From Nitratidesulfovibrio termitidis HI1 (GTDB lineage: Bacteria > Desulfobacterota > Desulfovibrionia > Desulfovibrionales > Desulfovibrionaceae): a DNA stretch of 64,000 nucleotides. Each line of letters begins with the position of its first letter. The first letter of the stretch is position 1. The notes under the pieces are model-generated. The model saw only the letters and a list, made by a program, of their open reading frames with translations, was not told the DNA's origin and did no database searches. The translations under genes were made by a program, and so were the position numbers. Positions 21,217 through 55,788 of the stretch are shown one piece after another. The stretch lies in contig NZ_KI632512.1 in the NCBI RefSeq assembly GCF_000504305.1, positions 151,307 to 215,306 of the forward strand, written 5' to 3'.

Positions 21217-21312
21217 CCGGGGAGGGGACCCTTTAACGCTCTGCGGTCCTCATCCGTAAGGTTCGCGCGTTGCGCTTACCTAACGGCTGAGGCAAAGGGT
21301 CTCCCTCCCCGG
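21217..21312 (+). repeat. Terminator-like hairpin repeat with a palindromic element in its loop
   Basis: Arms CCGGGGAGGGGACCCTTT (21217-21234) and AAAGGGTCTCCCTCCCCGG (21294-21312) are identical to those at 4225-4263. Here a 59-base element (21235-21293) lies between them. The insert contains CCTCA/TGAGG and CCGTAAGG/CCTAACGG pairings, so it folds on its own. The unit sits between proS and xseA. Confidence 0.8.
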
Positions 21313-21357
21313 ACCCCACCCCCCCCAAATTTTTTAATTGGCCCATCGCACCCGAAA

Positions 21358-21406
21358 GGGGGTGCAGGGGGCAGCGCCCCCTGCCCGCCGGAGGCGCATA
21401 AAAAAC
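21358..21406 (+). repeat. Second type of GC-rich hairpin repeat, empty form
   Basis: GCAGGGGGC-AGC-GCCCCCTGC forms a perfect 9-pair hairpin (21364-21384), followed by CCGCCGGAGGCGCATAAAAAAC. The same flanks, in the opposite orientation, surround the 119-base element at 55528-55646. It lies just before the xseA start and may end transcripts from proS. Confidence 0.65.
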
Positions 21407-21416
21407 CTCGCGCGCC

Positions 21417-22916
21417 ATGAGCACCATCTACACCGTGGGTGAATTGACCCGGGCCATCCGGGCCGCCATTGAGGGCGGATTTCCCTTCGTGTGGGTGCGC
21501 GGGCAGGTGAGCAACCTGTCGCGCCCGGCCTCGGGGCATTGCTATTTCGCGCTCAAGGACGAGGACGCGGTGCTGAACTGCGTGTGGTTCCGGGGCAACC
21601 AGCGCGACGCGGAACATTTCGATCCCATGACCGGCGAGGTGTTCGAGGACGGGCCACGGCCCGGCTTGGCGCGCACCATGGCCAACGGGCAGGAACTGCT
21701 GTGCGCGGGGCGGCTGACGGTGTACCCGCCGCGCGGCGGGTACCAGTTGGTGGTCGAGATGGCGCAGGACGCGGGCCTGGGGCGGCTGCACGCCCAGTTC
21801 GAGGCGCTGAAGGCCCGCCTTGCCGAGCGGGGATATTTCGACGCGGCGCGCAAGCGACCGCTGCCGCGCCATCCCAGGCGGGTGGCGGTGATCACGGCTT
21901 CCAGCGGTGCGGCGGTGCGCGACTTTCTGCGCATGGCGGACGAGCGCGGCTGGGGCTGCGAGATACGCATCCACCCGGTGCCGGTGCAGGGCGACGAGGC
22001 CCCCCCGCGCATCGCGGCGGCGCTGGCCGAGGTGGCCGCGCAGGGCTGGGCGCAGGTGGCGGTGCTGATTCGCGGCGGCGGTTCGCTGGAAGACCTGTGG
22101 GCCTTCAACGACGAGCGGGTGGCCACTGCGGTGTTCGGCAGCCCCTTGCCGGTGCTGGCGGGCATCGGCCACGAGGTGGACCACACCATGGCCGACATGA
22201 CCGCCGACGTGCGCGCGGCCACGCCCACCCACGCGGCGCAGTTGCTGTGGCCGGAGCGGCGTGAACTGGCGCAGCGCGTGGACGAACTGGAAATGGCCCT
22301 GACGCGGGGCATGGAACGGCGCTTCGCCCGGCTGGACGAACAGTTGGGTGCGCTGGTGCGCGGGCTGGCCTGGCTGTCGCCGGAACGGGCGCTGGCCCGG
22401 CTGGATGAACGCTTTGCCGACGCGGCGGCCCGCCTGGGCCGGGCGTGGGATGCGCTGGCGCTGCGCGATGCGGCGCGGCTGGACGCGGCGGACGCGGCCT
22501 TGGCCCGCAGGCTGGGGCCGGAGACGTGGGAGCGCCGTGAACGCGCCGTGGACGCGCTGGAAGCGCGCCTGCATTGGGCAGGCGAACGTGCGGTGACCGG
22601 GCGTGAGCATGAGTTGGAACGTCACGCCCTGCGGCTGGACGCACTGGACCCGCTGCGCCCGCTGGAGCGTGGCTACAGCCTGGTGCGTCGGGCCGACGGC
22701 GGCTTTTTGCGCAGCGTGGCTGAGGTGGCACCCGGCGATGCGCTGGCCGTGCTGGTGCGCGACGGCGAGGTGGACGTGACCGTGCGCGGGGCGCGGCCCG
22801 GAGAGATGCTGGAGCCGGGCGGCGCGACCGATGCTGGCCGCACTGCGGGAAACGGCGATAACGGCGAGAATGCCGGAAAGGGCGCCACGGAGCGGGACGC
22901 CGGAGATATTTCGTGA
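21417..22916 (+). CDS. xseA: Exodeoxyribonuclease VII large subunit
   Basis: Nuclease subunit that degrades single-stranded DNA with XseB. The 499-residue protein has an N-terminal OB fold (about 1-110, IYTVGELTRAIRAAIEGGFP and VWVRGQVSNLSRPASGHCYF). The catalytic core has VITASSGAAVRDFL, IRGGGSLEDLWAFNDE and GIGHEVDHTMADM. A long helical, arginine-rich region follows, and the C-terminus ends in LRPLERGYSLVRR and a short Gly/Asn/Asp-rich tail. The start follows the repeat at 21358. It shares a base with the peptidase gene that follows, and xseB lies one gene further on. Confidence 0.97.
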   Translation: MSTIYTVGELTRAIRAAIEGGFPFVWVRGQVSNLSRPASGHCYFALKDEDAVLNCVWFRGNQRDAEHFDPMTGEVFEDGPRPGLARTMANGQELLCAGRLTVYPPRGGYQLVVEMAQDAGLGRLHAQFEALKARLAERGYFDAARKRPLPRHPRRVAVITASSGAAVRDFLRMADERGWGCEIRIHPVPVQGDEAPPRIAAALAEVAAQGWAQVAVLIRGGGSLEDLWAFNDERVATAVFGSPLPVLAGIGHEVDHTMADMTADVRAATPTHAAQLLWPERRELAQRVDELEMALTRGMERRFARLDEQLGALVRGLAWLSPERALARLDERFADAAARLGRAWDALALRDAARLDAADAALARRLGPETWERRERAVDALEARLHWAGERAVTGREHELERHALRLDALDPLRPLERGYSLVRRADGGFLRSVAEVAPGDALAVLVRDGEVDVTVRGARPGEMLEPGGATDAGRTAGNGDNGENAGKGATERDAGDIS

Positions 22917-23965
22917 TGCAACGGTTTTTGTTTTTCGGGTTGGGGGGATATAGTGGACGATGTGGTCTCGGGGTCGCTCGCCTGCTGTTGATGTCAGCGG
23001 TTAGCTGGTGTCTGGCCGTTCCCTTGGTTCTGCTGCCGGCGCTGCTGCCCGTTGCTTCGGCCACACCCGCACAGGCGGCGGTGCTGTCGCTGGATGCGCC
23101 GGAATCCACCGGCGACGGCAAGCCCTTTGTGGTCACGGTAACGGCGGATGCGCCGGGCGACGTGGTGCTGGACTGGCGCGGCCAGACTCTCACCGTGCCC
23201 GTGGCGTCCACTACTGCTGGCGCTGTCACCGGGGCCACTGCCGGAGCCTCGGCCCCCGCCCGCTGGACTGGCCAGGCCATCCTGGCCGTGCCGCTGGATG
23301 CAAAGCCGGGTACGGAAACGCTGCGCGCCCGCGTAGCCGGGCAGCCCAAGGCAGTGCCCGCCGTCACCCGCGCCATCGCCGTGGTCCGCGCCGCCTATCC
23401 GGAGCAGCGCCTGACCGTGGAGGGCAAGTACGTCAACCCGGACAAGGCCGCGCTGGAACGCCACGAGGCGGAACGCGCCCGCATCAAGGCCGCGTTGGCC
23501 CTGCGCACCCCGGAGCGGCTGTGGGCGCTGCCCATGACGCGTCCCGTGCCGGGCGACGTGTCCAGCCTGTTCGGCCTGCGCCGGGTGTTCAACGGCGAGC
23601 CGCGCGCGCCGCATCGCGGGCTGGACCTGCGCGGTGAGGCGGGTGAATCGGTGGCCGCCTGCGCGTCGGGCCGGGTGGTTCTGGCAGAGAATCATTATTT
23701 CGCAGGCAATTCCGTGTACATCGACCACGGCATGGGAGTGCTGAGCATGTATTTTCATCTGTCCGCCATGGACGTGACCCCCGGCCAGATGGTGGAACGG
23801 GGGCAGGTCATCGGCAGGGTGGGCAGTACGGGCCGGGTTACCGGGCCGCACCTGCATTTCGGCATGGCGGTGCTTGGCGACATGGTGGACCCTCAGGTAT
23901 TGCTGGACCCTCAGGTATCGTTGGACAGGGCGTCCGCCAACACGGGCGCGCCCACACGGGAGTGA
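22916..23965 (+). CDS. M23-family (LytM) zinc metallopeptidase, exported
   Basis: A 349-residue envelope protein. A hydrophobic signal segment is at about 20-55. A beta-rich domain follows, then a helical linker with EAERARIKAAL, and then a LytM domain: HRGLDLRGEAG, GNSVYIDHGMGVLSMYFHLS and TGPHLHFGM carry the zinc ligands and the catalytic HxH. Such enzymes cleave peptidoglycan cross-links or activate amidases. The ATG at 22916 shares its A with the xseA stop; a GTG at 22913 is an alternative start. It sits between xseA and xseB, three bases before xseB. Confidence 0.9.
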   Translation: MQRFLFFGLGGYSGRCGLGVARLLLMSAVSWCLAVPLVLLPALLPVASATPAQAAVLSLDAPESTGDGKPFVVTVTADAPGDVVLDWRGQTLTVPVASTTAGAVTGATAGASAPARWTGQAILAVPLDAKPGTETLRARVAGQPKAVPAVTRAIAVVRAAYPEQRLTVEGKYVNPDKAALERHEAERARIKAALALRTPERLWALPMTRPVPGDVSSLFGLRRVFNGEPRAPHRGLDLRGEAGESVAACASGRVVLAENHYFAGNSVYIDHGMGVLSMYFHLSAMDVTPGQMVERGQVIGRVGSTGRVTGPHLHFGMAVLGDMVDPQVLLDPQVSLDRASANTGAPTRE

Positions 23966-23968
23966 CGC

Positions 23969-24280
23969 ATGGCCGCGCGCACACGAAGGAATGCGGGGGC
24001 AAAGGCCCCCGTCGGTGGTGACGGTGTTGATGGTGTTGTGGAAAAGGCCGAGGCGACGGTGGATTACGAAGCCGCCATGGCCCGTCTGCAAGAGGTTGTG
24101 GCCGCGCTGGAGGCGGGCGACCTGCCGCTGGAGCGCAGCGTGGCCCTGTACAAGGAAGGCCTTGGCCTGTCCCGCGCCTGCCGCGACCGGCTGCGCACGG
24201 CCCGCAACGAGATACGCCTGTTCACCGAAGGCGGCGTAACGGATTTTGAAGGGGTGGGGGACGATGCTGACGCCGAGTGA
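23969..24280 (+). CDS. xseB: Exodeoxyribonuclease VII small subunit
   Basis: A 103-residue helical-hairpin protein. The core [40 protein letters not shown] and ARNEIRLF are the family hallmarks; the first 30 residues are an Ala/Gly/Val-rich extension. It binds the XseA large subunit. It overlaps ispA by 17 bases, the common xseB-ispA-dxs order in proteobacteria. Confidence 0.95.
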
Positions 24281-25199
24281 GATCAAGGCCCGCCTGCGCG
24301 ATGCTGCCGCCGGGGTGGAGCGCTACCTGGCCGCGTGCCTGGCCAACCGGGGCATTCCCGCGCGGCTGCGCGCGTCCATGGAATACAGCCTGAACGCGGG
24401 CGGCAAGCGGGTGCGACCGGTGCTGTGCCTGACCGCCGCCGCGCTGTTCGGCCTGCCTGCGGAACGGGTGATGCCCTTTGCCGCCGCCATCGAGATGATC
24501 CACACCTATTCGCTCATCCATGACGATCTGCCCGCCATGGACGACGACGACCTGCGGCGCGGCAAGCCCTCGAACCACAAGATGTTCGACGAGGCCACGG
24601 CCATTCTGGCCGGTGACGGCCTGCTCACCGATGCCTTCGATTTCATGGCTGGCGTCGGGGCGGGCGTGGGGGGCAGCGCCGCAGACGGTGACACCGCCGC
24701 CATCCCCGCCGCCAACGTGCTTGCCGCCCTGCGCGCCGTTGCCCGCGCCGCCGGTGCCCCCGGCATGGTAGGCGGGCAGGCGCTGGACATGGAGTATACG
24801 GGCCGCACGGGCGTGACCCTGGACGAAATGGCTGCCATGCACGCCATGAAGACCGGGGCGCTGCTGCGCGCGTCATGCCTGTCCGGCGCATTGCTGGCAG
24901 GTGCCGACGCCGACGCGCAGGCCCGAATCGGCGATTATGGCGCGCACATCGGCGCGGCCTTCCAGATCGTGGATGATATCCTCGACGAGGTCGGCGACGA
25001 GGCGGAAATCGGCAAGCCCGTGGGCAGCGACGCGGAGCAGGGCAAGACCACCTACCCGTCGTTGCTGGGCGTGGAGCGCAGCCGCACCCTGGCCCGTGAA
25101 CGGGCCGACGCGGCCATAGAGCGGCTTTCGCCCTACACCGGGCCGGACGCCGATTTCCTGCGCAGCCTGGCCAGCTATATCGTGGATCGCGCTTCCTGA
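24264..25199 (+). CDS. ispA: Farnesyl diphosphate synthase (short-chain polyprenyl synthase)
   Basis: Makes C15 (or C20) prenyl diphosphate from IPP and DMAPP. The 311-residue protein has GGKRVRPVL, the first Asp-rich motif [14 protein letters not shown] at about 90-103 and the second FQIVDDILD. The chain-length region before the first motif (MIHTYSLIH) fits a farnesyl-type enzyme, though geranylgeranyl synthase cannot be excluded. The ATG at 24264 follows GGGTGGGGG; a TTG upstream at 24246 is less likely. It is 86 bases before dxs. Confidence 0.95.
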
Positions 25200-25285
25200 C
25201 GCCGCGCGAGAGCAATGTACGGCACGACAACAACGCCTTGCCTCACCGGGCGCGCCCCGCGCGGCCCGATAACGGATACCCACGC

Positions 25286-27238
25286 ATGACCGGACAGCTA
25301 CCGCCCTCGCTTTTTCCTTCGGGACATCCCCAAGGGCAATTCGCTGACACGCCCCTTCTGGATTCCCTCGCCAGCCCGCGCGACGTGGCCGGTCTGGCCC
25401 CCGAGTTTGTCCCGCAACTGGCCGACGAACTGCGTCAGCGCATCATCGCCACCGTGTCCCGTAACGGCGGACATCTTGCTCCCTCGCTGGGCGTGGTGGA
25501 ACTGACCATCGCGCTGCTGACCTCGTTCGACGTCGAGCGGGACAAGGTCGTCTGGGACGTGGGGCATCAGGCGTACGCCTGGAAGCTGCTGACGGGACGC
25601 GCCGCCAGCTTCCACACCCTGCGGCGCGGCGGCGGCATCAGCGGCTTTCCCAAGATGACGGAAAGCCCGTACGACCACTTCGGGGTGGGGCATTCCTCCA
25701 CGTCCATTTCCGCAGCGCTGGGCATGGCCATGGCGCGCGACCTGGCCGGGGGCGACAGCAATGTCGTGGCCGTCATCGGCGACGGCTCCATGACCGCGGG
25801 TCTTGCCTTCGAAGGGCTGAACCAGGCCGGGGCCATGGACCGCAAGCTCATCGTCGTGCTGAACGACAACGAGATGTCCATTTCCAAGAACGTGGGCGCG
25901 CTGTCGCTGTTCCTCAGCCGCAACCTGTCCAAGCGCTGGGTGCGCCGCATGAAGAAGGATATGGAAACCTTCATGCGTTCCATCCCCGGCATCGGCGAGG
26001 ACATGCTGGGCTACGCCAAGCGCAGCGAACACAGCCTGAAGGGGTTCTTCACGCCGGGCATGCTGTTCGAGGCGTTCGGGTTCAACTACATCGGTCCGGT
26101 GAACGGCCACGACGTCAAGGCGCTTACCCGCACCTTCGACATGGCCCGCACCCTGGATGAGCCGGTGTTGCTGCACGTGCTGACCCGCAAGGGCAAGGGT
26201 TACGCCCCGGCGGAAACCAACCCCACCCATTTCCACGGGGTGGGCCGCTTCGAGCCGGAAACGGGCAGGGCCGCCAAGCTGGCCGACGCCCCGGCGCTGC
26301 CCAGTTTCACCGACGTGTTCGGCGAAACGCTGTGCATGCTGGCCGACGAGGACAAGCGGGTCATAGCCATTACCGCCGCCATGCCGGAAGGCACCGGCAC
26401 CAGCTGTTTCTGTACGCGTCACCCCGAGCGGTTCGTGGATGTGGGCATCTGCGAGCAGCACGCGGTGACCTTTGCCGCGGGCCTTGCCACGCAGGGGCTG
26501 CGGCCGTTCGTGGCCATCTATTCCACCTTCCTGCAACGCTCGTACGATCAGGTGGTGCACGACGTGTGCATCCAGAACCTGCCGGTGGTGTTCTGCGTGG
26601 ACCGCGCCGGTCTGGTGGGCGAGGACGGCCCCACTCACCACGGGGTGTTCGACCTGTCGTACCTGCGACACATCCCCAACATGCACATTCTGGCCCCGCG
26701 CGACGAGGCGCAACTGCGCCACGCCATGCGCACCGCCCTGGCTTTGAACGCGCCGATGGCCATACGCTACCCGCGCGGCGTGGGCACGGGGGCCGCGTTG
26801 CCCCCGCGCGGCGAAGTGCAGCCCCTTGGCCGGGGCGAGGTGTTGAAGCAGGGTCGGGGGGTGGCCGTCATTGCCTGCGGCAGCCGGGTGGCCCCGGCGC
26901 TGGAGGCGGCGGAACGGGTGGCCGAGGAATCGGGCCGTCAGGTCACCGTGTTTGACGCCGTATGGGTAAAGCCGTTGCCGGAAGCGCAATTGCTGGAACT
27001 GGCCGCCACCCATGATGCGCTGCTGTTGCTGGAGGAGAACGCCCTGGCGGGCGGATTCACCTCTGCCGTGCTGGAATGTCTGGCCGACCACGGCGCGCTG
27101 CGCGGGCAGGCCATCCGCAGGCTGGGCGTGCCCGACCACTTCGTGGAGCATGGCAGCCAGAAGGAACTGCGGGCCAAGCTGGGCCTGTGCGTGGACGGCA
27201 TTGAAGAGGCTCTGCGGAGCATGCTGGGGCTGGAGTAA
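25286..27238 (+). CDS. dxs: 1-deoxy-D-xylulose-5-phosphate synthase
   Basis: Thiamin-diphosphate enzyme that starts the MEP pathway from pyruvate and glyceraldehyde 3-phosphate. The 650-residue protein has the thiamin motif GDGSMTAGLAFEGLNQAG followed by NDNEMSIS. The transketolase pyrimidine-binding part has DVGICEQHAVTFAAGLA, and DRAGLVGEDGPTHHG is fully conserved. The frame is open a little upstream, but the ATG at 25286 begins a normal N-terminus. It ends a block with ispG and ispA that supplies isoprenoid precursors. A terminator hairpin follows at 27277-27312. Confidence 0.97.
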   Translation: MTGQLPPSLFPSGHPQGQFADTPLLDSLASPRDVAGLAPEFVPQLADELRQRIIATVSRNGGHLAPSLGVVELTIALLTSFDVERDKVVWDVGHQAYAWKLLTGRAASFHTLRRGGGISGFPKMTESPYDHFGVGHSSTSISAALGMAMARDLAGGDSNVVAVIGDGSMTAGLAFEGLNQAGAMDRKLIVVLNDNEMSISKNVGALSLFLSRNLSKRWVRRMKKDMETFMRSIPGIGEDMLGYAKRSEHSLKGFFTPGMLFEAFGFNYIGPVNGHDVKALTRTFDMARTLDEPVLLHVLTRKGKGYAPAETNPTHFHGVGRFEPETGRAAKLADAPALPSFTDVFGETLCMLADEDKRVIAITAAMPEGTGTSCFCTRHPERFVDVGICEQHAVTFAAGLATQGLRPFVAIYSTFLQRSYDQVVHDVCIQNLPVVFCVDRAGLVGEDGPTHHGVFDLSYLRHIPNMHILAPRDEAQLRHAMRTALALNAPMAIRYPRGVGTGAALPPRGEVQPLGRGEVLKQGRGVAVIACGSRVAPALEAAERVAEESGRQVTVFDAVWVKPLPEAQLLELAATHDALLLLEENALAGGFTSAVLECLADHGALRGQAIRRLGVPDHFVEHGSQKELRAKLGLCVDGIEEALRSMLGLE

Positions 27239-27276
27239 GCCTGGCAGACGTTTCCGGTTGCGGAATCTCATGCAAT

Positions 27277-27312
27277 GAACGCGGCGGCGGGAATATCTTC
27301 CCGCCGCCGTTC
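27277..27312 (+). terminator. Terminator after dxs
   Basis: GAACG with GCGGCGGGAA on the left pairs with TTCCCGCCGCCGTTC on the right, with a two-base bulge and a TATC loop. It lies 38 bases after the dxs stop. Few Ts follow. Confidence 0.6.
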
Positions 27313-27334
27313 GCGTTGTCCGGGCGGTCGACGC

Positions 27335-27368
27335 AAAAGGGGCACGCGGACGAGAGTCCGCGTGCCCC
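27335..27368 (-). terminator. Terminator after dctM
   Basis: GGGGCACGCGGAC (27339-27351) and GTCCGCGTGCCCC (27356-27368) form a perfect 13-pair stem with a four-base loop. On the minus strand TTTT follows (27338-27335), as expected for an intrinsic terminator of the TRAP operon. Confidence 0.85.
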
Positions 27369-27398
27369 GTGTGTTTGCGGGCAGCCGGGTATCGTGCG

Positions 27399-28679
27399 CT
27401 ACATCAGCCAGCGCAGCGGAATCAGGGACAGCTTGGGGAAAAGCACCAGCAGGAACAATACCACGACCTCGATGAGGATGAACGGCAGCATCTTGAGCAC
27501 CAGTTCGCTCAGCTTGATGTTGCCGATGCCGCACACCACGTACAGTACCGTGCCCACTGGCGGGGTGATGACCCCGATGCCCAGGTTCAGCACGAACAGC
27601 AGGCCGAAGTGGTACGGGTCGATGCCGGCCTGCTGGATCAGCGGGTAGAACACGGGGGCGAAGATCAGGATGTTCGGCGTAAGGTCCATGACCATGCCCG
27701 CCACCAGCAGGAAGCACATGATGATCAACAGCAGCAGCGTGGGGCTGTCGATGAACGGCGCGAACAGGTTGGTGATGTGCATGGGGATCTGGGCCAGGGT
27801 GATGAAGTAGCCCACGGCGGATGCCGTGGCCACGATGAGCATCACCACGGCCGTGGTGCGCGCTGCCGCCGCGCTGACGCGCAGCAACTGCCGCAGGGTC
27901 AGTTCGCGGTAGTAGGCCATGCACACGAAGATGGCGAACACCGCCGCAACGGCGCCGCCCTCGGTGGGGGTGAACACGCCGAAGCGGATGCCGCCCAGCA
28001 GCAGCAGGGGCAGCATGAAGGCGGGGCTGGCGTCCTTGAGGATGGCCAGCTTTTCCGCGCGGGTGAAGTGGATGGTTTCGGTGTATCCATCCTTGCGCAC
28101 CACGAACCACCACATGACCAGCAGGCCCAGGCCCAGCATCAGGCCCGGGAACAGGCCGACCATGAACAGCTTGGTGATGGACAGGCTGACGGTGGACCCC
28201 AGGATGATGAAGTTGGTGCTGGGCGGAATGATGGGGCCGAGGATGGCGCCAGAGGCGATGATGCCCCCTGCGCGGCCCTTGTTGTAGCCCACCTGCTGCA
28301 TCATGGGCAGCAGCAGGCCGCCCAGGGCGGCAGCCTCGCCCACCGAACTGCCCATGAGCCCGGCAAAGATGATGCTGGCGACGATGGCCGCGTAGCCAAG
28401 GCCGCCCTTTACCCCGCCGATCATCAACTGGGCCAGTTGCACCACCCGTTTGGACAGGCCGCCCACGGCCATGATCTCGCCCGCGAAGACGAAGAACGGA
28501 ATGGCCATCAGCGGGTAGTTGTTGGCGCCGTCCAGCATGATGTTGGGGATGGTCATGGCATCCCACATGCCGGAATTCCACATCAGCACGATGGAGCACA
28601 GCACCAGCACCATGGAGATGGGAATGCCAAGGCACAGGAAGACGGCCAGGCTGCCGAAGAAGTAATAAAGCTGTTCCAC
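27399..28679 (-). CDS. dctM: TRAP transporter large membrane subunit DctM
   Basis: Twelve-helix permease subunit of a tripartite ATP-independent periplasmic transporter for carboxylates. The 426-residue protein has the DctM pattern MAIPFFVFAGEIMAVGGLSK, GSSVGEAAALGGLLLPMM and PPVGTVLYVVCGIG. I choose the GTG at 28679 because AAGGAG lies eight bases before it and it is four bases after dctQ; translation from the in-frame ATG at 28715 would run through dctQ. The solute is unknown from sequence. Last gene of the dctPQM unit. Confidence 0.93.
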   Translation of the reverse strand: MEQLYYFFGSLAVFLCLGIPISMVLVLCSIVLMWNSGMWDAMTIPNIMLDGANNYPLMAIPFFVFAGEIMAVGGLSKRVVQLAQLMIGGVKGGLGYAAIVASIIFAGLMGSSVGEAAALGGLLLPMMQQVGYNKGRAGGIIASGAILGPIIPPSTNFIILGSTVSLSITKLFMVGLFPGLMLGLGLLVMWWFVVRKDGYTETIHFTRAEKLAILKDASPAFMLPLLLLGGIRFGVFTPTEGGAVAAVFAIFVCMAYYRELTLRQLLRVSAAAARTTAVVMLIVATASAVGYFITLAQIPMHITNLFAPFIDSPTLLLLIIMCFLLVAGMVMDLTPNILIFAPVFYPLIQQAGIDPYHFGLLFVLNLGIGVITPPVGTVLYVVCGIGNIKLSELVLKMLPFILIEVVVLFLLVLFPKLSLIPLRWLM

Positions 28680-28683
28680 GGCG

Positions 28684-29235
28684 TTACTCCTTGGTCTTCT
28701 GCATGGCTTCTTCAAGCATGTCGGGGCGGACGAATTCGCTGGCCGGCTTCTTCAGCAGGCGGATGAAATCGGGAAGCTTGATGAGTATGGCGGCGGCGGC
28801 CATGATCGGCAGGGTGCCGTTGATGAACGCCATGTTCACGTTGGTGGCCACGGAGTTGGTGTCCATGGTCTGCTGCACCAGGATGATGCCGCCCCACAAC
28901 AGCAGGCCCAACGTGGCCAGGGTGAGCGATTGCGCGATGATGTCGATGCACTTGCGCAGCATGCCGCTGGTGAGGTTGGTGAACATGTCCACCGCGATGT
29001 GCCGGTTGCGGTAGAATGCTTCGATGGCCCCGAAGAAGGTGATGTAGATGAACAGGAAACGGGCCCATTCCTCGCTGGGGGCGAAGCTGGATCCGAACAC
29101 GTAGCGGAGGAAGGCGTTGTAGAACACAAGGCCGATCATCCCGAGGAAGATGACGGCGCAAAAAACCTCGAACGCGAACTCACCCTTGCTCGTGGTCGGC
29201 GGGATGGCCACGTTCGGCGTGGTGTCGTGGGTCAT
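28684..29235 (-). CDS. dctQ: TRAP transporter small membrane subunit DctQ
   Basis: A 183-residue protein with four hydrophobic segments, including FEVFCAVIFLGMIGLVFYNAF and FIYITFFGAIEAFYRNRHIAVD. The latter is the DctQ signature block with the RNRHIAVD core. It bridges DctP and DctM in the inner membrane. The start at 29235 is supported by GGAGA; the longer frame to 29316 would run into the terminator before it. The end has an acidic and basic cytoplasmic tail. Confidence 0.92.
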   Translation of the reverse strand: MTHDTTPNVAIPPTTSKGEFAFEVFCAVIFLGMIGLVFYNAFLRYVFGSSFAPSEEWARFLFIYITFFGAIEAFYRNRHIAVDMFTNLTSGMLRKCIDIIAQSLTLATLGLLLWGGIILVQQTMDTNSVATNVNMAFINGTLPIMAAAAILIKLPDFIRLLKKPASEFVRPDMLEEAMQKTKE

Positions 29236-29290
29236 GGATGTCTCCACAGCGGTTACGGTACTCCGGGGCGGGGTGCCGCCCCGGATGCCG

Positions 29291-29327
29291 AAAAAAAGGG
29301 AACCCCTTGCAGGCAAAGGGTTCCCCT
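29291..29327 (-). terminator. Terminator between dctP and dctQ
   Basis: On the minus strand GGGGAACCC, TTG, a short loop, CAA and GGGTTCCC form a hairpin followed by seven Ts (complement of A at 29291-29297). It lies 15 bases after the dctP stop and 56 bases before the dctQ start. The likely effect is high dctP expression with partial read-through into dctQM. Confidence 0.85.
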
Positions 29328-44640: not shown

Positions 44641-44737
44641 CCGGGGGGAAGGGGGCTTTGCGCTCTGCGGTCGCCATCCGTAAGGTTCGCAAGCTCACCT
44701 AACGGCTGCCGCAAAAGGTGGTTCCTCCCTCCCCCGG
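44641..44737. repeat. Hairpin repeat carrying a palindromic element between galE and lpxB
   Basis: Arms CCGGGGGGAAGGGGGCTTT (44641-44659) and AAAAGGTGG...CTCCCTCCCCCGG (44713-44737) are a divergent version of the 4225 and 21217 repeats. Their loop holds a 53-base element (44660-44712) with the core CCGTAAGG...CCTAACGG, shared with the insert at 21235. It can also act as terminator for galE and lpxB. Confidence 0.75.
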
Positions 44738-47918: not shown

Positions 47919-48937
47919 AGTCGTTCTCCGTACCAGCGTTGCATGAATTCCCTGTACGCCCCCGAGGCCACGCTTTCAAGCCATGCCGCGTTATCCCGGT
48001 ACCAGGCCACGGTTTCGGCCAGGCCCCGCTCGAAGTCGTATTCCGGCGCATAGCCAAGCTCTTGCGCCGCCAGCGAAAAATCCATGGCGTAGCGGCGGTC
48101 GTGGCCGGGACGGTCGGTAACGTGGCGGATCAGGCTTTCCGGCTTGCCCACCAGGCGCAGGATGGCGCGCACCACCTCTATGTTGGGGCGTTCCGCCGCG
48201 CCGCCGAAGTTGTAGACCGCGCTGGGGCGGCCCTTTTCCAGGGCCAGCAGCACCCCCCGGCAGTGGTCGCCCACGTGAATCCAGTCGCGCACGTTCATGC
48301 CGTCGCCGTAGACGGGCAGTGTCTCGTCGCGCCCGGCCCGGCCGATCATCAGCGGGATGAGCTTTTCGGGGAACTGGTAGGGGCCGTAGTTGTTGGAGCA
48401 GCGGGTGATGACCACCGGATAGCCGTAGGTCTCGAACCAGGCGCGGGCCATCAGGTCGCCCGACGCCTTGGAGGCGGAGTAGGGGCTGTTGGGGGCCAGC
48501 GGGGTGGATTCGGTGAAGCGGCCCTCCGGGCCCAGGGTGCCGTATACTTCGTCGGTGGAAACATGGACGAAGCGGGCCACGCCAGCCGCGCGCGCGGCGG
48601 TGAGCAGGGTTTGCGTGCCCAGCACGTTGGTGACCACGAAGGGCGCGGGGTCGTCGATGGAACGGTCCACGTGGGTTTCTGCCGCAAAGTTGACCACCGC
48701 GTCGATGCGGTGCTGCGTAAGGATGCGGCGCACCGCGTCCGCGTCTGCGATGTCGGCGTGTTCGAAGAAATAGCGGGCGCCGCCGTGGGTCTTCTCCACG
48801 TCGGCGAGATTCAGCGGGTTGCCCGCATAGGTCAGCTTGTCGAGGTTGACCACCGTGATGTCGGGACGGCGATCTATGATGAGACGGACGAAGTTGGTGC
48901 CGATGAAGCCGCAACCGCCCGTTACGAGTAAGCGCAT
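47915..48937 (-). CDS. rfbB: dTDP-glucose 4,6-dehydratase RfbB
   Basis: Makes dTDP-4-keto-6-deoxyglucose from dTDP-glucose. The 340-residue protein has GGCGFIGTNFV for NAD, AAETHVDRSIDDP, STDEVYG, YSASKASGD, and the late block RDWIHVGDHCRG. These are all typical of RfbB/RmlB. The ATG at 48937 follows GGAG. It is the first gene of a two-gene unit with rfbD. Confidence 0.95.
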   Translation of the reverse strand: MRLLVTGGCGFIGTNFVRLIIDRRPDITVVNLDKLTYAGNPLNLADVEKTHGGARYFFEHADIADADAVRRILTQHRIDAVVNFAAETHVDRSIDDPAPFVVTNVLGTQTLLTAARAAGVARFVHVSTDEVYGTLGPEGRFTESTPLAPNSPYSASKASGDLMARAWFETYGYPVVITRCSNNYGPYQFPEKLIPLMIGRAGRDETLPVYGDGMNVRDWIHVGDHCRGVLLALEKGRPSAVYNFGGAAERPNIEVVRAILRLVGKPESLIRHVTDRPGHDRRYAMDFSLAAQELGYAPEYDFERGLAETVAWYRDNAAWLESVASGAYREFMQRWYGERL

Positions 48938-49557
48938 CGTGTCTCCGTGAAGGTGACGGGTGTGCAAGGAGCTGCCTCTAATTTGTCTTTTCGCCCGTTG
49001 GCATCCGACCCGAAGGGCGCGAAGCGTGCCCGTTAGGCGAGCTTGCGAGCTTTACGGGCATCGTGCGCAGAGCGGTCAAGCTTCACCTGCCATAGCTCTG
49101 CTGTCCTTATCCGTAAGGTTCGCAAGCTCACCTAACGGCTAAGGCTCGGTCGAATACGAGAAGAGTATACTCCCTCATGGCAGGCTCGTTTTCCTTGCCA
49201 ACGAACGAAAATCCTAATTTAGAGACAGCCCCTAGGAATGAAAACCGGGAGGCAAGGCCCGGCGAGGCCCGGTGCCCATGCTCGGGCCAGGCTCTGCAAG
49301 GCCCGGATGGTACAGGCAGCGGCGGGGCAAGGTCAATATGGCGCGGTGGGCGGGGGTGGCGCATGGAGTGCGGCGCATCGTGCAGAAATAACTTGCAATA
49401 TCACATTGTCGCAGGTAGCGTGCATCATGGTGCTTCACGTCGCTGCGCCGCCGGGCGTGGCGGCGTGGAGCTGAGAGCGCCTGGGCGCTCCGCACGCGGA
49501 ACATCCGCGCCGCCTGACGCACGCGCATTTCGCATACGGTTCTTACGGCACCCGCAA
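48938..49557. other. Gap between rfbB and cbiK containing a two-arm palindromic repeat
   Basis: 620 bases, divergent. Besides the repeat at 49025-49145 it has an AT-rich stretch at 49195-49245 and a small hairpin AGCGCC-TGG-GCGCT near 49475. Frames here are open by chance; none has a recognisable protein or ribosome site. Confidence 0.5.
49025..49145. repeat. Full-length palindromic element (two inverted arms)
   Basis: The left arm (49028-49059) is CCCGTTAGGC, a loop GAGCTTGCGA, then GCTTTACGGG. The right arm (49105-49144) begins CCTTATCCGTAAGG, with loop TTCGCAAGCTC, then ACCTAACGGCTAAGG. The two arms are inverted copies of each other, and each also folds alone. In the centre GCAGAGC (about 49067) and GCTCTGC can pair. 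Same family as the elements at 21235, 44660 and 55528. Confidence 0.8.
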
Positions 49558-50400
49558 ATGAAAAAAGGCATCCTTCTCGCCGCATTCGGCTCCGGCACCC
49601 CGCAGGGGCAGTCCACCCTTCGTCTGTTCGACGAACGGGTGCGCGCGCTGTTTCCCGACGTGCCGGTGCGCTGGGCGTTCACCTCGGTTGTCATGCGCAA
49701 CCGGCTGGCAGCCGCGCGCAAGAAGACCGATTCCGTGCAGAAGGCCCTGCGCAAGATGTGGTTCGAAAAGTACACCCATGTCGCCGTGCAGTCGCTGCAT
49801 TCCATCCCCGGCGCGGAGTATGCCGACCTGCTGGCCGACGTGGAGGGTATGCGCGCGACGGAAGGCAGGCAGGAAGGCTTCGTGCGGGCCAGCGTGGGCG
49901 CTCCCCTGCTGGATTCCGACGAGGACATCCGCCGCGCCACCGCCGCGCTGCTGACCCATCTGCCGCCGGAGCGCGCCCCCGGCGAGGCCTGCGTGTTCAT
50001 GGGGCACGGCACCTGGCACGAGGGCGAATCGCGCTACGGGGTGCTGTCCGCCCAGGTGCGCCAGCGCGACCCGTTGGTGCACATTGGCACCATGGACGGC
50101 GATTGCACCATCGACGACATCCTGCCCCGCCTCGTGGAGGCCGGGGTGCGCCGGGTGTGGCTGCTGCCGCTGCTTTCCGTGGTGGGGCGGCATGCCATGC
50201 TGGACATGGCCGGTGACGCGCCGGATTCGTGGCGGTCGCGCATCGTGGCGGCGGGCATGGACTGCGTGCCCGTGCTGCGCGGCACGGCGGAATATGGCGG
50301 CTTCGTCGACATCTGGCTGGACCATCTGGGCGTGGCCTTGGGTGCGCTGGACGCGGAAGGGGGCGCTGATGTGGATGAGGGCGGGGTGTCGACCCGATAG
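49558..50400 (+). CDS. cbiK: Sirohydrochlorin cobaltochelatase CbiK (cytoplasmic type)
   Basis: Inserts cobalt (or iron) into sirohydrochlorin for cobalamin or siroheme synthesis. The 280-residue class II chelatase has two candidate catalytic histidines: H150 in FMGHGTWHEG and H212 in VVGRHAMLDMAGD. It has no signal peptide, so it is the cytoplasmic type; D. vulgaris also has a periplasmic one. The frame is open upstream, but MKKGILLAAFGSGTPQGQ at 49558 is the family start. No cobalamin riboswitch is recognisable upstream. Confidence 0.92.
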   Translation: MKKGILLAAFGSGTPQGQSTLRLFDERVRALFPDVPVRWAFTSVVMRNRLAAARKKTDSVQKALRKMWFEKYTHVAVQSLHSIPGAEYADLLADVEGMRATEGRQEGFVRASVGAPLLDSDEDIRRATAALLTHLPPERAPGEACVFMGHGTWHEGESRYGVLSAQVRQRDPLVHIGTMDGDCTIDDILPRLVEAGVRRVWLLPLLSVVGRHAMLDMAGDAPDSWRSRIVAAGMDCVPVLRGTAEYGGFVDIWLDHLGVALGALDAEGGADVDEGGVSTR

Positions 50401-50669
50401 AGCCTGACGCCGCAAATTTTCCATCGCCTGACAGCACAGCGTTATCTGCCGCGCCAGATTCTCCTGACACGCGGGACAACCCGAGGGCCGAGCGGGCCGA
50501 CGTGCCCGTCGCCCGATTTCCTGTCCCCGCATTCTCGCGGGCAGCTTCCCCTTCAACCCGTTCCTGCTCCCCGTTCCCCGTCCCGCTCCCCCGCCCGCGC
50601 TGGCGTTCGGAGGCGAAATCGGCTACAACGCCACGGAACGACACCATTTTGCAGAACTCCGGAGTATTC

Positions 50670-51689
50670 ATGATGTTCCGTTGTCCCAGCCGCCGCACGC
50701 GCGGCCACGGGGCGGCTCCGTCCCCCCGCCATACAGCGTCCCACGGGATGCTTTCCTGCCTTGCGTCCGGCGTGTCTGGCGTGTTTGGCGCGTCTGGGTC
50801 GCCGTGGCGACTCTTGTGCGGCCTTGCCGTCGCGCTCGCCGTGCTGTGCCAGGCCGTGCCGGGCCATGCCCGCCGTGCCGAAGCCGTATGGGGTGAAGGG
50901 CAGGCCTCCAAGACCCGCGCCCAGGCCCAGGGCGAGGCCTTTACTTCTGCCGTCACCGACGAGGCCCTGGACATCCTGCGCGCGCCCCTTTCCGAGGCGC
51001 GCCGCGCCGCGCTGCGCGAGTACCTGTCCACCGTCACCGGCGAGGTGGTGCGCGGCTACAGCGAACTGGGCATGACCCAGGTGCAGGGCGGCACCCGACT
51101 TGCCGTGGATGTGGACGTGAACCGCGACATGCTCAAGGAACGCCTGCGCCAGATCGGCGCCTACTATACCGCCGAAGAGCCCGTGCCCATGGTGTTGCAG
51201 CTTTCCGGCGCTTCGCCGGAGGTGGCGGAGCGGGTGAGCAGGCTGCAACTGTTGTACGGGGTGGAGCAGCGCGCCGGGGCCCCGGTACGTATCGCCCTGC
51301 GGCCGCAGAACCCGCAGAGCAAGGGCTGGTACGGCACGCTGGACGCGCCCGAGGGGTCCACATCCGCGGATGGGGCCAGCGCGGACGACGTGTGGCGCGG
51401 GTTGTGGGCGTGGTATTTCTCGCACCGTCAGGTGGCCGGGGCGGCGGCGGGCCAGCAGGCCGTGCTGCGGGTTTCCGGCTGGCTCACCGCCGACAGCGTG
51501 GAATCCTTCGACCGTGCCCTGCGCGACTGGGACCGCGCCCTGCAGAGCGCGCAGTTGCAGGACGTGACCATGCGGCCCGGCGGGCTGGTGGCCACGTGGA
51601 AGCTGGTGCTGGTGAACCGGGTGGAACTGGACCGGCGTCTGGACGAGTATCTTGCGCCGCGCAAGCTGACGCGCGAGGTGCTTCCGTAA
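50670..51689 (+). CDS. Exported protein of unknown function with a FlgT/LPP20-like N-terminus
   Basis: A 339-residue protein. After a basic leader (MMFRCPSRRTRGHG) there is a hydrophobic signal at about 46-62. The mature part starts with AVWGEGQASKTRAQAQGEAF, resembling the duplicated-helix start of FlgT/LPP20 lipoproteins, but I cannot assign a family. A Ser/Ala/Asp-rich loop follows near 230. GGAG precedes the ATG at 50670 by five bases. It stands alone, with cbiK 270 bases upstream. Confidence 0.65.
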   Translation: MMFRCPSRRTRGHGAAPSPRHTASHGMLSCLASGVSGVFGASGSPWRLLCGLAVALAVLCQAVPGHARRAEAVWGEGQASKTRAQAQGEAFTSAVTDEALDILRAPLSEARRAALREYLSTVTGEVVRGYSELGMTQVQGGTRLAVDVDVNRDMLKERLRQIGAYYTAEEPVPMVLQLSGASPEVAERVSRLQLLYGVEQRAGAPVRIALRPQNPQSKGWYGTLDAPEGSTSADGASADDVWRGLWAWYFSHRQVAGAAAGQQAVLRVSGWLTADSVESFDRALRDWDRALQSAQLQDVTMRPGGLVATWKLVLVNRVELDRRLDEYLAPRKLTREVLP

Positions 51690-51701
51690 CGCGGAAACAA
51701 G

Positions 51702-51732
51702 GAAACCCGGCGGGCATGCCGCGCCGGGTTTC
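51702..51732. terminator. Bidirectional terminator between an exported protein gene and tatA
   Basis: GAAACCCGGCG (51702-51712) and CGCCGGGTTTC (51722-51732) form an 11-pair stem with a nine-base loop. It lies between convergent genes. Confidence 0.75.
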
Positions 51733-51761
51733 GAAAAATGTCGGTCGGGCGCGTGGCCCGG

Positions 51762-51965
51762 TTATGCCTGCTTGTCGTCCTTGTCGATCTTGCCGTTCTT
51801 CTTGCCCGGAGTGATGTCGATTTCATCGGGCTCGCTGGTGGCCCGCTTGAAGTTCCGGATGGCACGCCCGAGCCCGCCGCCGATTTCGGGCAGCTTGTTG
51901 GCCCCGAACACCAGCAGGACCAGAACGAGAACGACCAACAATTCCTGAATGCCGATACCGAACAT
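51762..51965 (-). CDS. tatA: Sec-independent translocase subunit TatA
   Basis: A 67-residue Tat[22 protein letters not shown] is the membrane helix, followed by the hinge and amphipathic helix [20 protein letters not shown] and an acidic and lysine-rich tail. It forms the pore for folded Tat substrates such as the hydrogenase pair encoded in this window. The GGAGG is seven bases before the ATG at 51965, not those further upstream. Confidence 0.95.
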
Positions 51966-52090
51966 ATGCATGCCTCCGTTAGTGGTGTCATGCATATACA
52001 CATCGGGTACACCCCGGTCAAGGCGCGCAACGCCGGGGGATGGCCTGTGTTCCAAGGTGGTTGCGCACACTTCAATGAATGGAGCGATAC

Positions 52091-53983
52091 ATGCGACGCA
52101 TCGTTGTCATAGGTTCCGGTGTGGGGGCGGGCAAGCTTGCCGCGCGCGTCAAGCGGCTGCTGCCGGGGTGCGAGGTGAACATGATCATGCCCGAGGCGGG
52201 AGCCGAAGGCAGCGGTCCGTTTTCCGCGTGCATTGCGGGGCGGCGCGCCTCGCGCGTGCTGCTGGCCGCCCGTGAGGTGGGCGTGCTGGATGCCTCCGAA
52301 CTTTCCGTGGACCTCGACGCCAATACCGTCATCACCGGCTCCAGCCGGGGCAGGCTGGCCGTGCGCTACGATCAGCTGGCCATGGAAATCGACGCCACCC
52401 CGCGCATTCCCCGCGCCCTGCGCGGCGCGCCCAACGTGTTCGCCTGGCCCTGCGCCGACGCCACGGGCCTTGATGCCCTGCTGGCAGAGCGCGTGGCTGC
52501 CGGTGCCTGCCGGGCCGTGGTGGTGGGGCAGGGGGCCGAGGCGCTGGAAGCCCTGCGCCTTGCCCGCGCCGCCGGGGCCACCCCGGTGTGGGTGCGCACC
52601 CGCGCCGCAGTTGGCGACGCCGCCAACGCAGTGGATGCCGACATGTGGCGCCACGCGGCGCGCATGGCCCGCCGCAACGGCGTGGAAACGGTGAACTGGA
52701 CCGGCGTGGCCATGGAACGCATGGGCGCGCTGCCCGCCGAAGGCGGCGGTTTTGCCGGGCTGGTGGCCGTTGCCCCCGAACGTGCAGAAGGGGCAGGCGG
52801 TTCCGAACTGCGCGTGGAAGGCGACCTGTTCATCTGGACCGCCCCCATGGTGGTGCAGAATCCTGCCCTGACCCTGGACGGCATCAGCCTTGACGACACC
52901 GGGCGCATCGACGTGGACGGCTGCCTGCGCACCGGCGCGCCCGGCGTGTACGTGTTCGGCACCGGCGTCGGCGTCGAGCGCATGGCCCCGGACGGCAGCG
53001 TGGAGCAGGCCGCCGCCGTGCCTGCGGAGGTGCCGGGCCTTGTCCGCGCCCTGGCCGACCATCTGGCCTCCATCGACGGCAGCGGTGTCAGCGTGGCCCC
53101 CGCGCGGGGCGTGGCTGCCTGCCCCGCAGGTGAACTGGCGGCGGAACTGGCCCGGTCCGATGCTGCGGCCGTCGCGGGCGTGGCCGATGATCAGGCTGCC
53201 GATCTGGCTGCCGATCTGGCCATGGCGCTGGGCGACTGCCCCTGCCGCCTGCCCGCCCTGGGCGCCGTGCACGGCGAAGGCCCCGGCGTCACCGTGTCCG
53301 CCGTGGGGCTGGGCTCTGCCGCCTGCGTCCGGGCCGAGGTGGAAACCGAGTTTTCCGTGTACGCAACGCCCGCCGTGCAGGGTGGGGCTGGCCGGAACGC
53401 CTCTGGTGAAGAGGCGGACGATGCCGCCGCCTGGGGCGGTCTGCCCGCAGGGCATGCCGTGAAGTTGCTGGCCGCCAGGTCCGGCGGCGCGCTGCTGGGT
53501 GCGCAGGTGGTCGGGCGCGACGCCGAACTGTGCGCCGCCGTGGTGTCCGCCGCGTCGCTTGCGCTGCGCGCGGGCATGCGCGTGGCCGATCTTGCCCAGG
53601 CGGAACTGCCCGGCGGGGCCGGTGAACTGCTGCGCCGCGCCGCGGCCGTGCTGGCCAACAAGCTGGCGGGCCGCTACTTCGGCATCACCGCTGACGAATT
53701 CATCGCCTCGCGCGAGACCGGGGCGGAATTCTTCACCCTGGACCTGCGCAGCGCGCCAGACTGGCGTGCGGGCCACCTGCCCGACGCGTACAACATCCCG
53801 CACACCCAGTTGCGCAAGCGGTTGCAGGACGAAGTGCCGCGCTTCACGCCCATCGTGCTGGTGGCGGCAACCTCCGACGCGGCATGGAGCGTGGCGTGCA
53901 TGCTGGGCGGCCTTGGGGCCACCGACCTCTACGTGCTGGACGGCGGCATGGCCTTCTGGCCCCACGCGCTGGAGACGGCATGA
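52091..53983 (+). CDS. CoA-disulfide-reductase-like flavoprotein fused to an inactive rhodanese domain
   Basis: A 630-residue fusion. The N-terminal 460 residues look like a pyridine-nucleotide-disulfide reductase: GSGVGAG at 8-14 and a candidate redox cysteine C47 in GPFSACIAG, which resembles the single-cysteine site of CoA-disulfide reductase and NADH oxidases. The last 110 residues are a rhodanese fold ([20 protein letters not shown]), but the active-site loop reads [13 protein letters not shown] (about 589-601), so the catalytic Cys is Ala. The ATG at 52091 follows GGAG by six bases; an upstream ATG at 52079 is possible. It overlaps the Cys-rich gene. Confidence 0.8.
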
Positions 53984-54486
53984 CCTTTGAGAAAAACGGC
54001 AATAAGCCCGGCAAGGGTGGATGTCCACCCGCCGGGCCGTTGGCTTCCGGCAGGCCGGATGCCAGCGGCTCCCCCGCCACCGGCGGGCGGGGTCGCCTCA
54101 TGCGCCTGCCCGGCATCAACTGCCGCTTTCACGAGGCCGGGCACTGCGCCGTGGACGAAACCATGAACCCCGGCCTGAACGAGGACTGGCGCTGCGGCGA
54201 GGAACAGCGCATCGTCCGCGCCTACGACCATTTCCTCGAACAGGCGGAAACCTTCGACCTGTCTTCGGAGCAGGCCACGGCGCTGTGGGAGCGCCGTCTG
54301 GCCACCATTCCGCCGCCCGGCGGACTGTGCGCCGACTACACGCCGCCCGCCCGCTGCCCGTCCTGTACGGGCGACGGTTGCGGCGGCGAGACGGACTGGC
54401 TGGATTGCACCCACTTCCGCGAGGGGGTGTGCGTGTTGCTGCTGCCCCGTTGCGACGGCATCTGCGAACGGTTCCAGGGGGCGTGA
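53980..54486 (+). CDS. Cysteine-rich protein, unknown function
   Basis: A 168-residue cytoplasmic protein with 12 cysteines. They lie in CRFHEAGHC, DWRCGEEQ, GLCADY, ARCPSCTGDGC, LDCTHFREGVC and RCDGICERF. Such spacing suggests iron-sulfur or zinc sites, but I do not recognise the family. Its start overlaps the flavoprotein stop by four bases, and it has a Pro/Gly-rich N-terminal stretch. A role in sulfur or redox chemistry with its neighbour is inferred only from operon order. Confidence 0.75.
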   Translation: MTFEKNGNKPGKGGCPPAGPLASGRPDASGSPATGGRGRLMRLPGINCRFHEAGHCAVDETMNPGLNEDWRCGEEQRIVRAYDHFLEQAETFDLSSEQATALWERRLATIPPPGGLCADYTPPARCPSCTGDGCGGETDWLDCTHFREGVCVLLLPRCDGICERFQGA

Positions 54487-54517
54487 ACGGTCGTGGCGCA
54501 CGACGCCCCGTTCACGC
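54481..54517 (+). terminator. Hairpin after the cysteine-rich gene
   Basis: GCGTGAACGG (54481-54490) and CCGTTCACGC (54508-54517) surround TCGTG-GCG-CACGA, a stem of about 15 pairs that includes the stop codon of the upstream gene. GGTTTCAG follows, so the terminator is probably partial. Confidence 0.55.
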
Positions 54518-54544
54518 GGTTTCAGAGACTTCAAGCCCTTACCG

Positions 54545-55495
54545 ATGGTGACCATGCACAACGCTTCCGAACATCCCGTGCTCTACATTCCGCTGCTGCA
54601 CCGTGAGCTGGCCCCCGCCTGTCTGCCCGAAGGCGTGGAGTTCCTGTCCGCCGGCCTGCCCGCCGCTCCTTCCGTGGCTGGCGGCGCATCGCAAGCCCCT
54701 GCAACCCCTTCCGCCGCTGCCCCGTGGCGGTCGCCCCTGTTGCCCCTGTCCGAGGCGGAGGCGCGCGCCTGCCTGGCCGAACTGCTGGACTTCGGCATGA
54801 ACGTGGGTTCCGGCCCGCACGGCGACCTGGCCGCCATGGTGGCCGCGCTGGAAAGCGCGCAGGACGAGGCCCCCTTCTCTCTGGGCCGCTCCGAGTTGGC
54901 CGCGCTGGAAAGCTTTGCCGCCGAAGGTGCCGTGGCCGGTTCTCCTGCCGGTTCCCCCGCGAGCGACCCTGCTCAGGCTGACCGCAACCGGCGCATCGCC
55001 GCGCAGAAGACCCTGATCCTGGCCTGGCATCTGGAAGAGCGCGTGCGCGAACTGGATGCCCTGAAGGAAAAGTTTTCGCGCAGCCGCGAAAGCCTGGCCG
55101 ACATCCTGGGCGTGGAAACGGATGAGGAACTGCGCGAAATGCCCGCACTCGATCCGTATTCCGCCATGCTGCCCGGCAGCGGCGCGGACATCATCGGCCC
55201 TTCGTGGCGGGTCATCGTGGAGAACATGGCACCCTTCCTGCCCGATGGCGCGGTGCTGTTCACCTGCGATGCCGGGATTTCCGCCACCCTGCGCGACGGC
55301 GGGGCCGCCTTCGCCCCCGTCACCGCCGAACAGGCCGCCCGCCTGTGCCCCGCCTGGGGCGACAAGGTGGCCAAACTGGTGGTGCACGCCCGTCTGCCCC
55401 TGTGGCAGGTGGCGGGGCGCCCCGGCCCCGACGCCGCGCGCCCGTGGCTGGACCGCGTGTTCGACGTGGTCTGTTGCGGCAAGTGTGCCCGGTAG
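54545..55495 (+). CDS. Unknown protein with a C-terminal CCxxC motif
   Basis: A 316-residue protein. The N-terminal part is Ala/Pro-rich; a helical, coiled-coil-like segment (about 150-190, HLEERVRELDALKEKFSRSR) follows. The C-terminal domain ends in FDVVCCGKCAR. It has no signal peptide or membrane helix. I do not recognise a family. The start could also be the ATG at 54554, since neither has a strong ribosome site. A palindromic element lies right after it. Confidence 0.6.
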   Translation: MVTMHNASEHPVLYIPLLHRELAPACLPEGVEFLSAGLPAAPSVAGGASQAPATPSAAAPWRSPLLPLSEAEARACLAELLDFGMNVGSGPHGDLAAMVAALESAQDEAPFSLGRSELAALESFAAEGAVAGSPAGSPASDPAQADRNRRIAAQKTLILAWHLEERVRELDALKEKFSRSRESLADILGVETDEELREMPALDPYSAMLPGSGADIIGPSWRVIVENMAPFLPDGAVLFTCDAGISATLRDGGAAFAPVTAEQAARLCPAWGDKVAKLVVHARLPLWQVAGRPGPDAARPWLDRVFDVVCCGKCAR

Positions 55496-55527
55496 GGAAA
55501 CCGTTTTTGTACGCCTCCGGCGGGCAG

Positions 55528-55646
55528 GACGGCAGCTGTTATGCGAGCGCAACGCGCGAGCATTACAGATGGCGATAGCAGAGCTGGCTACGGCGCGTTG
55601 CGATCGCCATCCGTAATGCTCGAAGACTCGCATAACGGCTGCCGTC
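55528..55646. repeat. Full-length palindromic element in the loop of a hairpin repeat
   Basis: A 119-base inverted repeat starting GACGGCAGC and ending GCTGCCGTC. Each arm also folds alone: GTTATGC...GCATTAC on the left (from 55538) and GTAATGC...GCATAAC on the right. Next to it, the flanks CGCCTCCGGCGGGCAGG (55512-55528) and CCCCTGCACCCCCTTT (55646-55661) are identical, in reverse, to those around the empty hairpin at 21358-21406. The element therefore occupies a hairpin loop. Few Ts follow on the plus strand except CTTTTTCTC. Confidence 0.85.
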
Positions 55647-55788
55647 CCCTGCACCCCCTTTTTCTCATGTCCGCAATACGGAGGGGCACGGCCATCGTCG
55701 TTGCCCCCGATGCAGGGCATGACCGGTCTTCGTGGTCATCCTGTCCTCCGGGATGTGAAAACCGGCCAGCCTTTCCTTCGGAGTCATC

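Follow-up and report, generated by a model that had tools for sequence, protein, structure and literature searches.

The stretch analysed here (the window) comprises 64,000 nucleotides of Nitratidesulfovibrio termitidis HI1 (contig NZ_KI632512.1, positions 151,307 to 215,306) and carries related palindromic elements at four places, which a first-pass annotation had pointed out from the sequence alone. We report that these elements belong to a dispersed palindromic family, confirmed by genome-wide copies, whose unit is a single tagged hairpin of about 50 nt, imperfect in its pairing and here termed the arm. Six arms were found at the four places with R1, a covariance model built from 30 loci of the own genome and the antisense arm at 55 kb of the window. 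All six lie within other structures, here termed hosts: terminator hairpins (T), the large hairpin H2 or the G/C hairpin H3. The features are as follows (window coordinates; the slash marks the boundary between the 3' end of an arm and its flank; G001 to G007 are relatives of the same genus).

4225..4263, no strand: empty T hairpin with the same stems as the 21-kb host
21217..21234, no strand: 5' stem of a T host hairpin; same stem at 4225, orthologous empty hairpin in G003 and G004
21237..21293 (R1 21235-21295), plus strand: arm in the loop of this T hairpin; outer tag GCTCTGC-GG, 3' boundary C/A
21294..21312, no strand: 3' stem of the T host hairpin; pairing energy (E) -38.5, z -7.4 versus shuffles
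21358..21406, no strand: empty H3 hairpin; empty H3 forms also in G001, G003 and G007
44661..44712 (R1 44659-44714), plus strand: arm in a T hairpin; one stem half resembles that of one relative, the other half that of a second
48968..49233, plus strand: H2 element, host of two arms, with covarying helices and conserved internal loops
49021..49076 (R1), minus strand: arm at H2 position C (5' strand of an internal loop)
49092..49147 (R1), plus strand: arm at H2 position A; tag GCTCTGC-TG, 3' boundary C/T
55513..55659, no strand: H3 host hairpin with two arms
55527..55587 (R1), minus strand: antisense arm in H3
55592..55647 (R1), plus strand: sense arm in H3; tag TGC-GA, 3' end GCCGT/C

Read 5' to 3', the arm opens with GCNNTGC and two class-specific bases, which are followed by the first outer stem half and CCGTA A NGN TCG; a variable loop separates this from the mirror half TAACGG, and the second outer stem half ends mostly in GC. 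The 5' tag GCNNTGC (present at the start of 144 of 155 arms) stands outside the main stem, RNAalifold draws a 3-bp mini-hairpin within it, and the stem has a conserved A-A mismatch in addition to further mismatches. The annotation had distinguished two full-length inverted repeats of about 120 bases from two single arms; the 120-base forms are two arms sharing one host, and the long repeat was rejected as the unit, orthologues at 49 and 55 kb carrying one arm or none. One arm only was counted at 61 of 104 sites in the own genome, an upper bound given that weaker neighbouring arms are not among the matches listed, and such weaker arms adjoining listed ones were seen by eye. The compensatory changes in the core, offered as a sign that folding is selected or was recently copied, are also seen outside the window: across 30 distinct aligned rows, columns 28 and 48 pair as G-C in 14 rows and as U-A in 14, and are unpaired in two. 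Two-sided changes were found in five of the ten stem pairs and 98.7% of the cells are paired, in a structure derived from the same 30 rows, which favours predicted pairs. The covariation score was reached by none of 500 shuffles and the number of two-sided pairs by four of 500; further pair types were not above shuffles (497/500 as high). Sliding the partner register by one to three columns abolished the signal.

A strict arm pattern gave 94 matches (51 plus, 43 minus) in the own genome, a single contig of 4.26 Mb, and its reversed form none, which excludes chance. R1 gave at least 150 copies, all with E<1e-4, and the working set of 155 arms consists of the R1 matches and five pattern matches not listed by R1. 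The pattern is present in all eight genomes of the genus (own included) with 33 to 94 matches each, while the reversed control yielded one match in all eight, in G003. In a survey of 59 genomes of the family, R1 matches at 1e-5 were obtained in 16: at least 96 matches in each of the two genomes of this genus and 27 or fewer in the other 14. The core of the arm is kept in the R1 matches of five other genera, where several arms stand between complementary flanks (by eye, 16 loci).

According to a simple codon-score gene caller, 154 of the 155 arms are intergenic, the single overlap being with a low-scoring frame. The gaps are tandem for 100 arms, convergent for 41 and divergent for two, with only one gene seen for 11, and the closest gene 3' end is a median of 117 nt away from an arm. 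A host class was found for 154 arms by script and reading (the script left 58 unassigned, 57 of which were placed by hand), distributed as follows.

H2: position B 50 arms, position A 26, position C at least 7, other H2 13
Terminator loops (T): 21 arms
H3 (G/C hairpin): 17 arms
T' (second place in terminators): 10 arms
Other arms as host: 5 in tandem, 5 inside another arm (mid-stem)
No host class: 1 arm

H2 thus holds about two thirds of the arms (101/155, tandem arms included). The stems of T hosts differ widely from each other, the likeness being confined to a few T and A residues next to the loop, so that copying of one composite cannot explain the T hosts. Arms occupy a few fixed host positions, namely T loops, H2 positions A, B and C, the H3 loop and the mid-stem of another arm, and boundaries are clean where orthologous hosts with and without an arm are compared. 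T' sites, e.g. at 1553621, 2880016 and 3794421 of G000, are in a C-run before TCCCCCC AAAACTTTT. Among the 72 arms not assigned to H2 by the script (H2, nested and tandem arms recognised later included), flanks pair with z<=-4 in 17 cases, compared with eight of 400 random positions after gene ends (Fisher 9e-10), and better than at least 99 of 100 shuffles in 19 cases compared with 26 of 400 (Fisher 3e-6); shuffle runs vary, 20/72 having reached p<=0.01 in one and 19/72 in another. These comparisons replaced a flank-swap duplex test, in which the own partner was among the best three for 12 of 61 and which was weak because hosts resemble one another. The idea that the loops of two hairpin repeats are preferred sites needs to be widened: hairpins are preferred, often in their loops, but there are at least five host contexts, arms included, and some hosts (T', part of H2 position B) offer no plain loop.

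Sites with and without an arm were compared between species at 22 loci, namely 19 chosen sites, mostly single-arm or simple and not random, and the window loci at 44, 49 and 55 kb. For the 19 sites, 60 of 73 mapped orthologous stretches were read, including seven of G003 and all G004, G006 and G007 matches except G006 at 520321 and G007 at 2064970 and 2439245. The same host lacks the arm in some relative at 13 of the 22 loci (by reading, partly filled hosts included). Clean empties among the 19 are 172541, 1553538, 2064970, 2433406, 3225496, 4108323, 4919, 1148151 (position A), 2958777 and 3551276, to which the three window loci add. Not counted were 2439245, 3768291 and 1131198, where hosts differ; 520321, 2524431 and 2880093, filled in relatives; and 2510329, 2754071 and 90653, where the host differs or is absent. 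Shared boundaries and empty orthologous sites, set beforehand as the test of a mobile family, were both found, relatives often having no arm.

The junction is exact at 21 kb, where G003 and G004 read CCCTTTAAAAAGGG and the window reads CCCTTTAA, the arm and AAAGGG; the empty loop equals both window flanks joined. By eye, the stems around this arm match those of the 4225 hairpin and the flanks of the 55-kb pair match, in reverse, those of the hairpin at 21358-21406, as had been proposed. No target duplication was seen by eye at 21 kb or other aligned empty sites. Stepwise occupancy is seen at several loci. At 3225496, neither arm is present in G006, one in G004 and three in the own genome, these three lying in the T loop, at T' and inside the T' arm; the last sits at CCG(T)AAGG, where the T has been lost. 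The site at 4919 has no arm in G007, a single one in G003 and in G006, and two in tandem in G004. At 49 kb (G001 to G004, G006 and G007 compared), H2 is missing in G001, G002 and G004 as well as in G003, which has unrelated sequence there; it is bare in G006, carries an arm at C only in G007 and at C and A in the window. The 55-kb H3 is empty in G001 and G003, holds one arm in G007 and two in G005, and is replaced by another arm-bearing hairpin in G002, G004 and G006. At 44 kb, G002 is empty, G005 filled and G003 empty up to the end of the stretch examined. The arm at 1148151 is at position A in the own genome and at C in G006 and G007, and H2 at 3551276 and 2958777 is empty in one relative.

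The two bases that follow TGC in the tag are associated with the 3' boundary. Among the 144 tagged arms of the own genome, 76 have GG, 68 of them with boundary C/A; 40 have TG, 36 with C/T; and 14 have GA, 13 with T/C; the exceptions include three TG arms with C/A. Copies within one host class are not independent and independent host classes are few. Of hosts unrelated to each other, T and H2B both have GG with C/A, T' and H2A both TG with C/T. In genus relatives (25 distinct arms, partly orthologues of own arms) GG goes with C/A in 15 of 16 and TG with C/T in all four. No single pairing rule was found to fit GG, TG and GA alike. The association is reminiscent of the guide codes of single-strand transposases, a likeness of kind.

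On balance we lean towards reading the arms as a non-autonomous, REP-like (repetitive extragenic palindromic) mobile family that inserts at fixed positions of host hairpins near gene 3' ends. On this reading an arm might move as folded single-stranded DNA and become part of a host hairpin with an exposed single-stranded loop. Target choice would then depend partly on the two bases that follow TGC, much as it depends on guide bases in IS200/IS605 and TnpA_REP, and the enzyme, acting in trans, could have been lost, be intermittently present or lie outside the Y1 family. With terminator stems left intact, insertions would be nearly harmless and would accumulate. The narrower proposal that the arms are single-strand mobile hairpins with a two-base tag code (GG for C/A, TG for C/T, GA for T/C) moved by a non-Y1 enzyme is, in our judgement, rather doubtful.

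Several findings weigh against mobility, among them those on a mover. There are no matches to the Y1 transposase family (PF01797) in the own genome, and a resident RAYT (REP-associated tyrosine transposase), the type of mover with which the first-pass annotation drew a comparison, was rejected; no resident Y1 gene flanked by arms, as in a REPtron, was found. An IS200-like piece is present once in each of two of the eight genus genomes, G004 (broken by stops) and G006 (cut by the contig end and possibly whole), and both translate to an IS200-like TnpA. R1 found no arms near either piece in the stretches examined, the G006 stretch ending with the contig, nor in the examined flanks of the Y1 matches of G009, G015, G050, G051 and G062; the protein of the G009 match (L359, 1009-1860) has 283 aa and extends far beyond its Y1 domain at the C-terminal end. 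Among the 59 family genomes Y1 occurs in seven of 16 with arms and 14 of 43 without (Fisher p 0.54), and by eye only housekeeping genes, with no transposase-like gene, stand between close arm pairs at six loci. In a search that covered the Y1 family alone, the Y1 route is thus not supported today, a past or visiting enzyme being possible. The sites themselves add further points on the same side. Many junctions depart from the empty form at one or two bases, and some empty sites may be losses, their polarity having been read without a tree. The T' site has no obvious loop, and the H2B arms fall into two registers: 28 of 50 have the 3' flank AC, after a predicted 4-bp apical helix, and 20 of 50 have AT and interrupt that helix. 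Of the 15 regex matches in other genera, 14 carry the tag TC, and they show no code. The outer arm bases are specific to the host class, which also fits within-class spread by recombination, and at 44 kb the left stem of the window resembles that of G003 and the right stem that of G002, giving a hybrid look.

The last two points would suit spread without any transposase, by short-tract gene conversion or template switching between hairpins of like loop and stem-top (e.g. CTTT...AAAG). Such a process would account for the clustering of the outer arm by host class (agreement of nearest neighbours: 5' outer part 0.78, 3' outer part 0.64, inner part 0.50, chance 0.25), for the different arms at the same orthologous position in relatives (520321, 2524431 and 2880093) and for an own genome without a Y1 gene. 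It fits poorly with T hosts whose stems are unrelated, with the tag code shared by unrelated hosts and with arms inside arms, which require a jump to a new context; we hold it to be a serious minority possibility. In a second alternative, the arms would be peripheral helices of long standing in 3'-end RNA structures, passed on together with their hosts, and empty hosts would have lost them by deletion. H2 does covary, is locked to stop codons and has arms at fixed places, and similar cores are found in arms of five other genera of the family, several of these arms being flanked by complementary sequence as judged by eye. However, the empties recur across species with ordinary tight loops (TTTGGAAA, TTTGAAAA, TTTAAAAA), the 21-kb empty loop consists of exactly both flanks, and arms are nested and in tandem, which makes this explanation improbable. 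Still harder to credit is that the arms are passive passengers spread solely by the copying of their hosts, with H2 and H3 as MITE-like (miniature inverted-repeat transposable element) units: H2, which holds most of the arms, is itself present or absent between species (49 kb; 90653), but its orthologous copies differ in arms (none, C, or C and A at 49 kb; 1148151; 3551276; 2958777) and the T hosts have different stems.

Among known systems, the arms resemble REPs, bacterial interspersed mosaic elements (BIMEs) and REP doublets forming hairpins (REPINs) mobilised by TnpA_REP in being short imperfect palindromes of high copy number (at least 150 copies, 154 of the 155 studied being intergenic) with a covarying stem, a mid-stem mismatch and a 5' tag. 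They differ in that the tag is GCNNTGC, without a terminal unpaired GTAG or CGTC tetranucleotide; in that a single arm can be the unit, relatives at 49 and 55 kb having one of the two arms where BIMEs and REPINs move two inverted units together; and in that arms insert into other hairpins in a genome without a Y1 gene. Insertion of IS200/IS605 elements produces no target duplication, and none was seen for the arms. MITEs are non-autonomous, short and present in many copies; arms differ from them in having neither separate terminal inverted repeats nor a visible target duplication, and H2, with palindromic ends and presence/absence, may be closer. The 3' boundaries of arms are mostly C/A or C/T, the dinucleotides cut by Marinomonas TnpA_REP, for which an altered GTAG tag led to a different dinucleotide being cut (PMC8266576). 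The same paper describes guide bases that pair with the cleavage site in IS200/IS605, whose folded single-strand ends and guide bases the arms recall, the arm differing in its lack of a transposase gene, its one hairpin instead of two ends and its length of about 50 nt. No account of this arm family was found in the open-access literature searched. The first-pass remark that no description was known nevertheless needs softening, since REPs inside palindromes have been reported in three other bacteria, A. variabilis, T. roseum and H. neapolitanus (Di Nocera 2013, PMC3733652). According to that article, T. roseum has hundreds of copies of the REP target palindrome and the CGTC REPs apparently have no dedicated transposase; the arms are alike in being REP-like units inside palindromes with no dedicated transposase seen, and differ in lacking the CGTC tag and in having several unrelated hosts instead of one target palindrome per species. 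For the arms, empty hosts at orthologous positions and the nesting of one arm in another are documented here, and the word 'empty' does not occur in the main text of PMC3733652.

The arm family bears on how REP-like repeats spread. Several orthologous sites found empty or filled, an exact junction, nested copies and the association of tag and target make both a mover and a target rule testable. Terminators that differ by a loop insert also occur naturally here, and the effect of the insert on termination could be measured with them; the model sulfate reducer N. vulgaris Hildenborough belongs to the same genus.

The main host, H2, is a large hairpin whose helices covary and whose internal loops are conserved; a strict apical motif finds 58 copies in the genome and none in the reversed control. 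Two-sided changes occur in 22 of 43 predicted pairs across 18 arm-free copies. Among the 51 copies with a script-found start (57 were read), 46 follow a coding frame whose stop codon lies 8 to 34 nt ahead of the H2 inner motif, mostly at 18 to 20 nt; this codon is TAG in 40 copies, and the window copy is an exception to the locking. Rfam gave no H2 match above the gathering score at five H2-bearing loci (L003, L017, L020, L022 and L024) and nothing at gathering level in the window, and at E<=1 seven loci gave one tRNA and otherwise only five matches below gathering scores. Presence or absence of H2 also varies between species at 90653, the relatives concerned being G006 and G007. H2 has the look of a structured 3'-end RNA whose own presence is variable, and is possibly a new 3'-end RNA or mobile element.

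A few further observations were made in the relatives. In the G004 orthologue of 3768291 (L309), H3 has a short arm-like remnant, GGACGGCAG followed by CCGGAGGC, which might reflect an arm deleted in part. Contigs of draft relatives stop at arm sites or close to them (L293, L296, L297, L298 and L300), and arms with their hosts may break short-read assemblies. At the orthologues of window 44.6 kb, H2 stands directly at the stop codon TAG in G004 (L240); the own genome and G001, G002, G003, G005 and G006 have TGA and no H2 there, and G007 has TAG with no visible H2. H2 may supply part of the stop codon.

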